A stretch of DNA of 64,000 nt from NCBI RefSeq assembly GCF_001306415.1, contig NZ_LDJX01000002.1, positions 682,001 through 746,000 on the forward strand. Reading direction: 5' to 3'. The DNA comes from Croceitalea dokdonensis DOKDO 023 (GTDB lineage Bacteria > Bacteroidota > Bacteroidia > Flavobacteriales > Flavobacteriaceae). Positions 23,384 to 53,710 of this stretch are shown in pieces. Below the pieces are notes generated by a model that was given only the letters and a program-made list of their open reading frames with translations, searched no databases and had not been told where the DNA came from. Position 1 is the first letter of the stretch; each line of letters opens with the position of its first letter. The position numbers were made by a program, and so were the translations under genes.

Positions 23384-24430
23384 ATGGTTCAGTTCGATGA
23401 AAAAATATACTTCTACCTGCTGGGGATACTTCCTGTGGTCTTGTTGTTTTTTCTCGTATTGCATATCTGGAAAAAGAAAAAACAAAAGGAATTTGCGGAA
23501 GCAAATTTATTAAAGCGGTTGGCGCCCAATAAGTCTAATTTTAAATCTACCTTAAAACTGTTGTTCCTGCTCGGAGGTCTAAGCTTCCTTATCCTTGGGT
23601 TGGTAAACCCTAAAATTGGAACCAAACTGGAAACCGTTAAACGGGAAGGGGTGGACATTGTTTTTGCCGTGGATGTTTCCAAGAGTATGCTGGCAGAGGA
23701 CATTGCCCCCAATAGGATAGAAAAAGCAAAACGGCTGGTCTCGGAAATCATCAACCAATTGGCAAGTGACCGGATTGGTATCATTGCCTATGCGGGCCAG
23801 GCGTATCCCCAATTGCCCATTACCACGGACTATGGAGCCGCAAAAATGTTTTTGCAGGGCATGAACACCAATATGCTGTCCTCACAAGGTACCGCCATTA
23901 ATTCCGCCATTGAGTTGGCCACCACCTATTTTAATGATGATGAACAGACCAATAGAGTGCTATTTATCATTTCTGATGGCGAGGACCATTCTGAACAAAA
24001 CACCTTGGCTGCGGTAGAGGAGGCCATTGAAAACGGCATTAAGGTGTACACTATAGGTGTTGGAAAACCAAAGGGCGCACCAATACCCATAAAACGGAAC
24101 GGTGTGGTAGAGAGCTTTAAAAAAGATGCGCAAGGCGAAGTAGTCATCACAAAATTAAATGAGGGTATTCTGGCAACCATCGCAGAAGAAGGCAATGGAC
24201 AATATATCAACGGGTCCAATACAGAAGCTGCAGTAGAATATATTAAGGAAGAGCTAAACAAGATGGACAAAAAGGAATTTGAGGCCAAGCAATTTGCTGA
24301 ATACAAAGACCAATTTCAATGGTTTTTGGGGATTGGCCTTTTGTTTTTGTTTTTAGATGTTTTTATTTTAGATAGAAAGACCCAGTGGTTGAAGAAGTTA
24401 AATCTTTTTAATGAACAAGACCATGCGTAA
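23384..24430 (+). CDS. batB: BatB, VWA-domain membrane protein
   Basis: A 348-residue paralog of BatA with the same layout: N-terminal helices (LLGILPVVLLFFLVLHIW and FLLGGLSFLILGLVNP), VWA domain with MIDAS VDVSKSM and ISDGEDHSEQNTL, and a C-terminal helix (FLGIGLLFLFLDVFIL). The stop codon overlaps the start region of batC by up to 20 bp. Confidence 0.9.
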   Translation: MVQFDEKIYFYLLGILPVVLLFFLVLHIWKKKKQKEFAEANLLKRLAPNKSNFKSTLKLLFLLGGLSFLILGLVNPKIGTKLETVKREGVDIVFAVDVSKSMLAEDIAPNRIEKAKRLVSEIINQLASDRIGIIAYAGQAYPQLPITTDYGAAKMFLQGMNTNMLSSQGTAINSAIELATTYFNDDEQTNRVLFIISDGEDHSEQNTLAAVEEAIENGIKVYTIGVGKPKGAPIPIKRNGVVESFKKDAQGEVVITKLNEGILATIAEEGNGQYINGSNTEAAVEYIKEELNKMDKKEFEAKQFAEYKDQFQWFLGIGLLFLFLDVFILDRKTQWLKKLNLFNEQDHA

Positions 24431-50347: not shown

Positions 50348-50369
50348 GCCCTGTGTTCAGGGCTTTTTT
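50348..50369 (+). terminator. intrinsic terminator after the PfkB kinase
   Basis: Six-bp stem GCCCTG / CAGGGC with a TGTT loop and six T, seven bases past the kinase stop. It lies before the chosen start of the amidotransferase, ruling out an upstream start. Confidence 0.85.
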
Positions 50370-50382
50370 ATTCGTACAAACT

Positions 50383-52281
50383 ATGAGCGATGCCATAAAA
50401 CATGAATGTGGAATCTCATTGATTCGATTATTAAAACCGTTGGAGTATTACAAAGAGAAGTACGGCACCGCATTCTATGGGGTAAACAAAATGTACCTCA
50501 TGATGGAAAAACAACACAATCGCGGTCAGGATGGTGCCGGGTTTGCCAGTATAAAATTGGACATGCAGCCCGGAGAAAGATATATGAGCCGTGTCCGTTC
50601 ATGCCAGCAACAACCCATACAGGATATTTTTAAGCAAATAAATGACCGTATCAATGCTGCCATCGCGGATGCCCCGCAGCTATGGGACGATGTTGCTAGA
50701 CAGAAAAAAGAAATTCCCTACATAGGTGAGCTGCTCCTTGGTCATGTACGTTACGGAACCTTTGGAAAAAACAGTATTGAAAGTGTCCACCCTTTTCTTA
50801 GGCAAAACAACTGGATGCACCGCAACCTTATTGTGGCAGGAAATTTTAATATGACCAATGTAGATGAACTCTTTGGGAATTTGATTGAGCTGGGCCAGCA
50901 TCCCAAGGAAATGGCAGATACCATAACGGTGATGGAAAAGATTGGTCACTTTTTGGATGATGCCGTTGCCAAAATCTACAAACAGATTAAAAAAGAAGGT
51001 TTCAATAAACGCGAGGCCTCACCCATTATAGCAGAACGGCTAAATGTGGCCAAGGTGCTCAGAAAAGCAGCTAAAAATTGGGACGGCGGATATGCCATGG
51101 GCGGACTCTTAGGTCACGGCGATGCTTTTTTATTAAGAGATCCTGCAGGCATTAGGCCCAGTTACTATTACAAGGATGATGAAATTGTAGTGGTGGCATC
51201 AGAACGGCCAGTGATTCAGACCGTATTCAATGTTGCCTATGAAGAGGTTAAGGAACTGGACCCGGGCAAGGCCATTATCATCAAAAAAAATGGCAAAGTT
51301 TCCTTTGAGGAAATACTAAGTCCAACCGAAAGAAAGGCATGTTCTTTTGAACGCATCTATTTTTCCCGTGGCAGTGATAAAGAAATTTACAAAGAGCGCA
51401 AAATGCTGGGGAAACTTGTTTTTCCTGAAATTCTTAGGGCGATAGACAACGACATTGAAAATGCGGTATTCTCCTATATCCCCAACACTGCGGAAACCTC
51501 CTTTCTGGGAATGGTTAGGGAAGCGCAAAATTATTTGAACCGTAAAAAAGAAGACCAGATATTGGCATTGGGGCCTAAGATTACCAAAGAAGAACTTCAC
51601 CGCATCCTAGACGTGAGGCCCAGAATTGAAAAAGTGGCCATTAAAGATGCCAAACTACGGACGTTCATTACACAAGACAATAGTAGGGACGACCTAGTGG
51701 CCCATGTTTATGATATTTCCTACGGTTCTGTTAAACCAGAAGATAACCTTGTCATCATAGATGATAGTATTGTACGGGGAACCACTTTAAAAAAGAGTAT
51801 TTTGAGAATGCTGGATCGCCTCAACCCTAAAAAAATTGTGGTTGTTTCCTCTGCGCCCCAAATTAGATACCCGGATTGTTATGGTATTGATATGGCAAAA
51901 CTAGAAGACTTTGTTGCTTTTAAAGCAGCATTGGCACTACACAAAGAAAGGGGAACGGAAAAAGATATCGAAAAAATTTACAACAAATGTCTGGGCCAAG
52001 TAAAATCCAAGGATAAAGATGTAATCAATTATGTGAAAGAATTCTATGCGCCGTTCACAGCTATTGAAATTTCAAAAAAAATAGGCGAAATCCTAAGTCC
52101 ACCGGATATTGGTGCCGAAGTGGAAATCATATACCAAACCATAGAAAATTTACATATGGCTTGCCCACACAATTTAGGGGACTGGTATTTTACCGGCAAC
52201 TATCCTACCCCAGGTGGGAATAAGGTGGTCAATAGGGCTTTTATTAATTTCTTTGAAGGAAAAAATCAAAGGGCATATTAA
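50383..52281 (+). CDS. amidophosphoribosyltransferase, long PurF form
   Basis: A 632-residue glutamine-dependent transferase making phosphoribosylamine from PRPP in purine synthesis. The N-terminal glutaminase domain begins MSDAIKHECGI, where Cys9 would be the N-terminal nucleophile after removal of a short propeptide, and includes EKQHNRGQDGAGFASIKL. PRPP-binding VIIDDSIVRGTTLKKSILRMLDRL. Longer than E. coli PurF, typical of Bacteroidota. The start at 50383 is chosen because a terminator occupies the region of the upstream alternative (50353). Confidence 0.9.
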   Translation: MSDAIKHECGISLIRLLKPLEYYKEKYGTAFYGVNKMYLMMEKQHNRGQDGAGFASIKLDMQPGERYMSRVRSCQQQPIQDIFKQINDRINAAIADAPQLWDDVARQKKEIPYIGELLLGHVRYGTFGKNSIESVHPFLRQNNWMHRNLIVAGNFNMTNVDELFGNLIELGQHPKEMADTITVMEKIGHFLDDAVAKIYKQIKKEGFNKREASPIIAERLNVAKVLRKAAKNWDGGYAMGGLLGHGDAFLLRDPAGIRPSYYYKDDEIVVVASERPVIQTVFNVAYEEVKELDPGKAIIIKKNGKVSFEEILSPTERKACSFERIYFSRGSDKEIYKERKMLGKLVFPEILRAIDNDIENAVFSYIPNTAETSFLGMVREAQNYLNRKKEDQILALGPKITKEELHRILDVRPRIEKVAIKDAKLRTFITQDNSRDDLVAHVYDISYGSVKPEDNLVIIDDSIVRGTTLKKSILRMLDRLNPKKIVVVSSAPQIRYPDCYGIDMAKLEDFVAFKAALALHKERGTEKDIEKIYNKCLGQVKSKDKDVINYVKEFYAPFTAIEISKKIGEILSPPDIGAEVEIIYQTIENLHMACPHNLGDWYFTGNYPTPGGNKVVNRAFINFFEGKNQRAY

Positions 52282-52375
52282 ACCATAAAACGACAAAATA
52301 TTGCGCTTTATCGATGTTTTTAACACTTAAGCGGTTTTTTAACAAGTTGATGGTTACTCAAACTATATTCGGACC

Positions 52376-52449
52376 ATACCATAGCATAAGTAGGTTAAGT
52401 TCATGGTAAGATTTGGGGCAAAAAAGGTGGAGACTTCTCCACCTTTTTT
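52376..52449 (+). ncRNA. candidate small RNA, copy 1
   Basis: Core 52378-52418 (41 nt), identical to copy 2. It begins ACCATAGCATAAG, runs through AGGTTAAG and ends GATTTGGGG. It is followed by terminator stem AAAAAAGGTGGAG (52420-52432) and CTCCACCTTTTTT (52437-52449), loop ACTT. Promoter: -7-like TATATTCG at 52364-52371 (one base from TAnnTTTG), TTG at 52347. Predicted transcript about 72 nt. Copies and independent hairpins argue for an RNA gene. Confidence 0.8.
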
Positions 52450-52761
52450 ATTTTAACCTTCTTTTTCCCTTCCAAAGAATGGTCACAAGAAACCAAAAGG
52501 TAACATTAGATTATCCGCTGGACGGATAAGAATCCACCCAATAATCCGAACATGGATAGCGCTGCCCAGATAAAATTCTTCACAGTTGTGGTATTTAACT
52601 ACTTAGGTGCTTTTTAAATATCCAGAGGCACATGTAAAAAATTGTAGGAAATCATTGTAGGTTACATGGGTATAAAAATACATTGTTACCATTTACCGCT
52701 TTTAATGGGGTTTTATCTAAAACTGCAACTGCCTACACCAGCTTTGCCATACATTTGGAGA

Positions 52762-52829
52762 ACCATAGCATAAGTAGGTTAAGTTCATGGTAAGATTTGG
52801 GGAAGAAGGCGGACTATGTCCGCCTTCTT
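52762..52829 (+). ncRNA. candidate small RNA, copy 2
   Basis: Core 52762-52802 is 41/41 identical to copy 1. Terminator arms AAGAAGGCGGAC (52803-52814) and GTCCGCCTTCTT (52818-52829) around loop TAT, unrelated in sequence to copy 1 but again perfectly paired. Promoter: perfect -7 box TACATTTG (52750-52757), ending four bases before the core. Predicted transcript about 68 nt. Confidence 0.82.
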
Positions 52830-52954
52830 TATGTTTGAAAACCAACACTTTATCGATGAAATGCACATTTTTGGATTTTGCCTCCTCCTCTTCCAAACAA
52901 AATAAATGTTAAAATTTCTTTGTTATTTGCCACAATACCAGTAATTTAGTTTTG

Positions 52955-53025
52955 CCATAGCATAAGTAGGTTAAGTTTATGGTAAGATTTGGGACGAAAA
53001 GGGTAAGTTAATTCTTACCCTTTTC
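52955..53025 (+). ncRNA. candidate small RNA, copy 3
   Basis: Core 52955-52993 matches copies 1 and 2 at 38 of 39 positions (C to T at 52978). Terminator arms GAAAAGGGTAAG (52996-53007) and CTTACCCTTTTC (53014-53025), loop TTAATT, again a different but perfect stem. Promoter: TAGTTTTG (52947-52954, TAnnTTTG) with TTTG at 52926-52929 (spacer 17). Predicted transcript about 70 nt. Confidence 0.82.
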
Positions 53026-53053
53026 TATTTTCAGATATTTTAGAAATTAGGAC

Positions 53054-53080
53054 AAAAAAAATGCGGCAAAAGCCGCATTT
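53054..53080 (-). terminator. intrinsic terminator of superoxide dismutase gene
   Basis: Nine-bp stem AAATGCGGC / GCCGCATTT with an AAAA loop, followed on the minus strand by a T run (A at 53054-53061). It begins 21 bp past the sod stop codon. Confidence 0.85.
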
Positions 53081-53101
53081 GTTCTTTGGGTTTATTGACC
53101 C

Positions 53102-53710
53102 TTATTTATGGGCAGCAAAGTGCTTGCTAACCTTATCCCAATTGATGACATTAAAGAACGCGCCAACATAATCAGGTCTTCTATTTTGGTAGTTTAAATA
53201 GTAAGCGTGCTCCCAAACGTCCAAACCTAAAATTGGTGCACCTTCACAACCAACGCCTGGCATAATGGGATTGTCTTGATTAGGGGTGGAACAAACCTCT
53301 AACTTTCCGCCTTTGTGCACGCACAACCAAGCCCATCCGGAACCAAACCTTGACCCCGCGGCAGCACTGAACTTTTCTTTGAATGCATCAAAAGAACCAA
53401 AGGAAGCATTTATGGCCTCTGCCAATTCTCCGGTTGGGTTTCCTCCGCCATCTGCGGACATCACCTCCCAAAATAAGGCATGGTTATAAAAACCACCTCC
53501 ATTGTTTCTCACCGCGCCATTGGACATATCCAAATTGGAAAGAATATCAACAATATCCTTACCTTCCAACGCTGTGCCCTCAATAGCTGCGTTAAGTTTG
53601 GTCGTGTATCCATTATGATGCTTTGTATGGTGAATTTCCATGGTTCTTGCATCTATATGTGGTTCCAATGCGTCATAGGCATAGGGTAATTTAGGCAATT
53701 CAAAAGCCAT
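53102..53710 (-). CDS. sodB: Fe/Mn superoxide dismutase
   Basis: A 202-residue enzyme removing superoxide. The metal ligands are His in [12 protein letters not shown], His in FYNHALFWE, and Asp/His in [23 protein letters not shown] and the C-terminal [10 protein letters not shown] are typical. Fe versus Mn cannot be decided here, so the symbol is provisional. -7 box TATTTTTG on the minus strand (53753 to 53746) upstream. Divergent from the AddA-like gene. Confidence 0.92.

Follow-up and report, generated by a model that had tools for sequence, protein, structure and literature searches.

A conserved tandem array of putative paralogous trans-acting small RNAs in Flavobacteriaceae

Sets of several near-identical small RNAs (sRNAs), such as LhrC and Qrr, permit dose or signal integration, and Qrr depends on Hfq. 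Listeria LhrC and Vibrio Qrr are named as paralogous sets in the available part of a study of FopS and GibS from Bacteroides thetaiotaomicron (PMC11697453), which presents the latter RNAs as short, multicopy and terminator-ended in a lineage without Hfq. The same part of that study gives FopS an unstructured, RbpB-bound 5′ end and, as its targets, susC mRNAs engaged at their start codons. Rfp18 of Flavobacterium psychrophilum is, according to the excerpted account (PMC9723704), conserved beyond its species and affects metalloprotease mRNAs; a secreted adhesin is a predicted target, pairing runs through the third stem-loop, and deletion of Rfp18 lowered target mRNA levels. Flavo-1 RNA appears in the consulted part of its report (PMC2864571) as a Bacteroidetes candidate structured RNA. 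Regulation by sRNAs is little explored in the large family Flavobacteriaceae, and the genome considered here has no detectable Hfq (no match to PF17209 at E up to 0.001).

The window, which is the whole 64,000-nt stretch of DNA that was analysed, carries three copies of a core of about 40 nt, all within the 820-bp gap between a PurF-like gene with a glutamine amidotransferase domain (50353–52281, plus strand) and the convergent gene for an Fe/Mn superoxide dismutase (53102–53710, minus strand), its conserved upstream and downstream neighbours. An exact scan of the window placed CCATAGCATAAGTAGG at 52379, 52763 and 52955; with up to three mismatches one further match appeared, at 24177 with 3 mismatches, where shuffles expect 0.53. 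A repeat scan likewise found three copies, spaced 384 and then 192 nt apart. Cores 1 and 2 are identical across 41 nt, the preceding A included, and core 3 carries a single change in its first 39 nt, C to T at core position 24. The original prediction had described three tandem copies with exactly these identities at these places, and both points held; its proposed count of copies elsewhere yielded none in the 3.88-Mb genome (20-mer, up to 3 mismatches). At 384 nt, the spacing of copies 1 and 2 is precisely double the 192-nt step, which looks as though a middle unit between them (52420–52762) had been lost or replaced.

With ends that are inferred, copy 1 spans 52376–52451 (first unit of the array, linker end ...GGGGC), copy 2 52762–52833 (middle-type unit) and copy 3 52954–53027 (last-type unit, TTTATGG ... 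GGGACGAAAAGGG), all on the plus strand. The sequence supports the view that each is a separate small RNA gene of about 70–77 nt, in line with the self-contained units of about 70 nt that had been proposed. Nothing in the window reaches the cut-off of any Rfam 15 family, which agrees with the earlier description of the family as unrecognised, and the comparison with Flavo-1 (RF01705) that had been suggested gave no match in the region at E up to 5. Matches at relaxed thresholds, STnc40 and sraA among them, were set aside as chance, the better ones lying on the terminator hairpin and several occurring on both strands.

Each copy is preceded by a TAnnTTTG or near-TAnnTTTG box, as anticipated: TATATTCG at 52364–52371, with one mismatch to the consensus, TACATTTG at 52750–52757 and TAATTTAG at 52942–52949 (plus strand). 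Since boxes of this type in Flavobacterium are placed at −12 to −5 in the available part of the published description (PMC9723704), the corresponding 5′ ends would fall at 52376, 52762 and 52954. The upstream sequences differ between copies. Copy 2 has an upstream promoter element, TTTATCTAAA (52712–52721, plus strand), at a fixed distance from the core, and 152 of 395 units carry the matching element TTBRTCYRAW, 125 of its matches standing at −50/−51 from the core against a background of 0.007 per 60 nt; after removal of duplicate stretches the counts are 143 of 376 units and 118 matches. As the marker of a wider regulon this element was dropped; together with a −7-like box it occurred at 15 places elsewhere in about 860 kb of the own genome, compared with 7 for the reversed element.

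The promoter of copy 3 (52919–52949, plus strand) combines TTTG (−33), ACAATACCAGTA, which is kept in last-type units, and TAATTTAG (−7). Last-type units are distinguished by the sequence TTTATGG, found in 72 of 87 last units and 2 of 192 other units (arrays of at least two among the matches listed), a split that fails in one large genus sampled, where nearly all units are TTTATGG. Among the arrays listed, 68 TTTATGG-type last units have the promoter ACAATACCAGTAnTTTAG in common. Last-type promoters are also conserved between the −33 and −7 boxes (CACAATACCAGTA), both at 52919–52949 of the window and in the 68 arrays, which suggests a dedicated regulator site there. Several inputs thus appear, from these sequences, to control one RNA output.

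Folding places a hairpin at the 5′ end of every copy, at 52377–52408 (loop GUAGG; also seen in natural variants), 52762–52791 and 52954–52983, all on the plus strand; the three copies fold with z-scores of −4.1 to −5.4. The near-invariant sequence is CCAUAGCAUAAGUAGGUUAAGUUYAUGG, which pairs in the fold as CCAUAGC-A-UAA-[GUAGG]-UUA-A-GUU-Y-AUGG. The original prediction had called the core unstructured; this part of it fell, because the first 28 of the 40 nt fold as a hairpin that natural variants largely keep. Between this hairpin and the terminator the fold leaves (A)GAUUUGGG(G/A) single-stranded, with AGAUUUGGGG exposed. This linker reads AGATTTGGGG in copy 1 (52409–52418), where the fold and the site searches described below make it the proposed pairing seed, AGATTTGGGG again in copy 2 (52793–52802) and AGATTTGGGA in copy 3 (52985–52994). 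A terminator-like hairpin with a T-rich tail then closes all three copies, where at least two had been expected: 52420–52449 in copy 1, identified by fold and covariation, 52802–52830 in copy 2, by fold, and 52996–53025 in copy 3, the only one that a simple terminator scanner also flags (linkers and terminators all on the plus strand). On this sequence evidence each unit is equipped with its own putative promoter and Rho-independent terminator.

Natural variation was examined in two alignments. The first consists of 51 selected units less 7 (truncated or overlong units, one with a decayed linker and one carrying insertions) plus window copy 2; the second holds 42 units of one hairpin geometry (41, minus 1 duplicate, plus 2 window copies) and excludes window copy 2, whose hairpin geometry differs. 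Across these 42 units the terminator helix shows changes on both sides in 8 of 13 pairs (61 cells), a covariation score reached by 0 of 500 shuffles. In the 5′ helix 8 pairs do not vary, and 2 others change on one side only and stay paired. Variants from outside this alignment are mostly compatible with the hairpin: G6 to A turns a G-U into an A-U pair, A10 to T re-pairs in a shifted register, one natural variant swaps C7-G21 for A-U, and position 24 is a bulge; a few variants break one pair or fold otherwise. The hairpin is retained whole or in part by nearly all of 29 distinct natural cores (a set restricted to cores keeping GTAG and ATTTGGG). Sixteen natural hairpin variants, typed and free of length changes, had a higher mean stability than random mutants carrying as many changes, 12 of 1000 simulations being as stable; this is moderate support for the hairpin, given how little most positions vary. 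Nearly all 28 hairpin bases are conserved, which exceeds what base pairing alone needs, and the linker, too, hardly varies across the family. One Maribacter array (L021:6645-6717) contains a copy with a decayed linker, AACATGTGTGAAAA, and intact hairpin and terminator, and so provides a natural seed mutant.

The array is widespread. Scanning reference genomes for an exact 21-mer yielded at least 117 stretches, and the matches listed together with the window hold at least 310 units in at least 118 arrays of 1 to 6, whose unit step is mostly about 190–230 nt in the arrays among the matches listed. When one genome per genus was searched with up to 2 mismatches, the core was present in 90 of 120 Flavobacteriaceae genera, with copies mostly in tandem; it occurred in 7 of 21 genomes under 2.5 Mb (several of these small ones being incomplete assemblies) as against 83 of 99 larger ones. 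Under stricter filters, a covariance model run over 395 Bacteroidota genomes scored at least 58 bits in 33 of the 41 genomes listed for the family and had no strong match in the 354 genomes outside it, the best reaching 34 bits. The neighbourhood is conserved: among the matches listed, PurF or Sod is present on 113 of 117 stretches, each at most 8 kb long. In three genomes (G014, G005 and G024) copies occur at more than one genomic place, at least hundreds of kilobases apart or on another contig.

Several ways in which the core might find targets gave nothing in the own genome. At 720 gene starts (about 22% of the genome) none of the 7-mers of the core passed the 3-s.d. mark except those matching ATGAA, and none of the 720 genes had a CCCCAAATCT start site. 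The energies of duplexes between the core and start regions resembled those that shuffled cores gave: the strongest fell within the shuffle range, and at some lower ranks the core outdid all 12 shuffles by 0.7 kcal/mol or less, an excess for which ATGAA pairing could account. Because these k-mer, site and energy results were all null, the regulon per genome looks small. The idea of a full complement of the core across a start codon was rejected as well: with at most 3 mismatches AAATCTTACCATGAACTT had 17 matches in the own genome, 3 of them to the array itself, versus 5 for the control, and the 14 that were read included no convincing gene start, with L144 and L145 overlapping the start of a short alternative frame. 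A peptide reading of the core was also rejected because relatives lose one base within it.

The linker was tried as a seed after the other targeting ideas had come out null. In 20 relatives CCCCAAATCTN{5,20}ATG gave 44 matches, compared with 13 for the reversed pattern, and at the 42 distinct places in relatives where CCCCAAATCT, without the AA prefix, precedes an ATG by a gap of 1–20, 8 lay at gene starts, 6 of them at the gene for a response regulator; two of the 8 places labelled as starts (L285 and L304) are doubtful, each overlapping another reading frame. Extension to 159 genomes of the family returned 35 rows for AACCCCAAATCTN{1,14}ATG versus 19 for the reversed pattern. Counted as distinct places, with overlapping ATGs and repeats merged, AACCCCAAATCT with an ATG 1–14 nt downstream was found 32 times and stood at gene starts in 16. 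In these 159 genomes a shuffle of the site that preserves its dinucleotides occurred at 18 distinct places (from 19 rows), none of them at a start (Fisher p 1.2e-4). To be scored as a start, an ATG had to open an ORF of 80 aa or longer (60 aa or longer for ORFs truncated by the stretch), with an in-frame stop in the 150 nt before it and without another in-frame ATG lying over 15 nt upstream. The exposed, conserved linker is thus, as far as sequence can tell, a seed complementary to translation initiation regions. This clustering of complementary sites at start codons lends support to antisense action, which the original prediction had suggested for the paralogous copies. Predicted duplexes for four targets, including an extension of UUCAU to AUGAA, have energies of −17.8 to −24.5 kcal/mol.

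The original prediction left the targets unnamed, and candidates can now be put forward on the strength of predicted pairing, the best of them in the own genome being a gene for a LuxR-type response regulator. Its start site occurs in the own genome and five others, or 6 of 8 genomes of the genus; the two without it are 88% and 54% complete. The proteins of the five that were scanned have Pfam Response_reg and GerE domains, and when the upstream regions of five genomes were compared directly only AACCCCAAATCT and ATGAA aligned. In the own genome the gene adjoins one of the PorP/SprF family (type IX secretion). The 16 start-site genes differ between genera; they include M14 carboxypeptidases in three genera, a type IX sorting-domain protein, a polysaccharide lyase with lectin domains, an MscS channel and sugar-nucleotide enzymes, and 9 of the 16 look secreted or lipoprotein-like/surface-bound when their N-termini are read by eye.

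A related string occurs in another context. Tyrosine-recombinase genes at L143/L301 (G000:C14:109046), L282 and L305 (G510) carry CCCCAAATCTTACC, complementary to GGUAAGAUUUGGGG of the sRNA, at their 3′ end, and a CCCCAAATCTTACT variant ends a tyrosine-recombinase-like ORF at L360 (G513); the L143 and L282 proteins match Pfam Phage_integrase, and the L305 and L360 ORFs are similar by eye. At L357 (G512) the CCCCAAATCTTACC string has no adjacent tyrosine-recombinase ORF. Two possible roles for this recombinase-end string are that of an attachment site with a link to the sRNA gene and that of an additional place for pairing.

The best reading of the locus is a new family of paralogous, putatively trans-acting sRNAs, in a genome where no Hfq is detected, which probably block translation initiation by pairing of the linker before the start codon; we favour it because of the concentration of sites at start codons and because the regulator site is kept within the genus. 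Each unit would be transcribed independently as a trans-acting RNA of about 73–77 nt, its 5′ end closed by the near-invariant hairpin, its 3′ end by the Rho-independent terminator, and (A)GAUUUGGGG exposed between them. The linker would pair with CCCCAAAUCU just upstream of the start codon (1–14 nt, the range searched) in a few mRNAs, UUCAU in the 3′ arm of the hairpin would extend the pairing over AUGAA starts, and the duplex would block ribosome loading, so that the expected sign of regulation is repression. Since the copies have one seed and different promoters, several signals could act on the same targets, and the last copy, with its GGGA linker, may have a shifted target set. A broader picture, in which the array is a core post-transcriptional regulator of Flavobacteriaceae, its promoter-diversified copies converging on one start-codon-blocking output whose targets are a dedicated response regulator and proteins that are secreted or lie at the surface, and in which an RNA-binding protein holds the near-invariant hairpin where Hfq and RRM proteins are lacking, is possible, and we put it forward tentatively.

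The strongest challenge concerns the sites rather than the RNA. The start-codon sites have in common an AA before CCCC that is not complementary to the sRNA, and because these bases are kept without pairing AACCCCAAATCT could be a DNA operator or leader element unrelated to the sRNA, which would then be real and have other targets and another mechanism; that the target genes vary by genus fits this reading too. We consider it rather unlikely, given that the site matches exactly the exposed, near-invariant linker and that a shuffle of the same composition never fell at a start (0 of 18). The two also occur together: the sRNA is present in all 11 start-site genomes that are also in the 120-genus census, against a base rate of 90 of 120, an outcome expected about 4% of the time by chance if the two were independent.

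RNAs of the CsrB/RsmZ type act by titrating a protein, and the whole array might do likewise, the hairpin with its GUAGG loop and the linker binding an RNA-binding protein that the tandem copies would titrate, with pairing secondary or absent. Conservation of nearly all 28 hairpin bases and of the linker over the family goes beyond the needs of a seed, genomes hold several copies, and the 720 start regions lack a broad pairing signal, all of which suits a decoy. Against a decoy stand the complementary sites that concentrate at start codons (16 of 32 versus 0 of 18) and recur at one response-regulator gene within the genus; moreover, each RNA offers one hairpin besides the terminator instead of many repeated motifs. 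As an alternative to pairing we therefore regard titration as unlikely, while the conservation of the whole hairpin beyond pairing needs keeps a protein partner or a decoy role in play beside the linker-pairing mechanism.

Membership in the Bacteroides FopS/GibS family, with RbpB-bound RNAs antisense to the start codons of susC mRNAs, is a tempting idea: the string UUCAUGGUA..AGAUUU is common to the array RNA and the alignment of the Rfam model, and the RNAs here are likewise multicopy, short and terminator-ended, with sites at start codons. Homology on the basis of this string was nonetheless rejected as weak against shuffles, since 31, 159, 420 and 843 of 1500 shuffles were as good in four comparisons of the 5′ part. 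The FopS model (RF04319) gave copy 1 (sense strand) 20.6 bits, far from its curated cut-off of 56 bits, and found no match anywhere in the own genome at E up to 0.001. A 5′ hairpin is predicted in all three copies; an RRM_1 (PF00076) protein of the RbpB type had no match in the own genome at E up to 0.001, the control search in Bacteroides being positive; and none of CCAAATCT, CCCAAATCT and CCCCAAATCT occurs at −120 to +40 of 30 TonB/SusC-type genes, so these start regions lack a CCAAATCT-type linker site. Membership is, on this evidence, highly improbable. In one genome above the FopS cut-off (L136, G354:C1) the model match is antisense to an apparent gene start, TAACCTTAAATCTAAATCTCTATGAAAAA, and may detect a FopS target site, not an sRNA. 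That the array is a mobile, transposon-like repeat or belongs to a longer gene, as the original prediction had itself considered and as the several near-identical copies might suggest, we discount almost entirely: the genome holds three copies at a single locus whose neighbours are kept across genera, each unit has its own putative promoter and covarying terminator, searches of viral contigs and plasmids for the sRNA gave no match, and relatives show 1-nt length changes inside the core, with no reading frame kept across them.

A 40-nt core kept near letter-for-letter in 90 of 120 genera, with its neighbours, offers a natural entry point to sRNA regulation in this family, and the linker AGAUUUGGGG with AACCCCAAAUCU before the start of the LuxR-type response regulator forms a concrete candidate seed/target pair. 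If the hairpin binds a protein, the sRNA would serve as bait for the missing RNA chaperone of flavobacteria. The covariance model could serve to annotate RNA-seq data across the family, and the array sRNA may already stand, without a name, among the candidates that RNA-seq gave for F. psychrophilum (PMC9723704) and F. columnare (PMC5395568). In the open-access literature, with supplements and most subscription papers outside the scope, we recognised no paper describing the array.

Compared with the known systems, Flavo-1 (RF01705) is also a candidate structured RNA of Bacteroidetes, and is set apart by the absence of a match at E up to 5. LhrC and Qrr are likewise sets of near-identical paralogues, but belong to other phyla, and the Hfq on which Qrr relies has no match in the genome here. 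Rfp18 is flavobacterial like the array, and its metalloprotease and adhesin theme, as given in the excerpted account, parallels the M14 and surface-protein candidates; it is described as pairing through a third stem-loop, whereas the array RNA has two hairpins. From FopS and GibS, as portrayed in the available part of their study, the array differs in being a tandem array at a kept locus, in its 5′ hairpin, in its seed AGAUUUGGGG and in a genome where no RRM_1 protein was found. The likeness to these two is nevertheless broad, since both systems come from Bacteroidota in which no Hfq is found and consist of short, multicopy, terminator-ended RNAs that pair, here by prediction, at the start codons of mRNAs for surface proteins.
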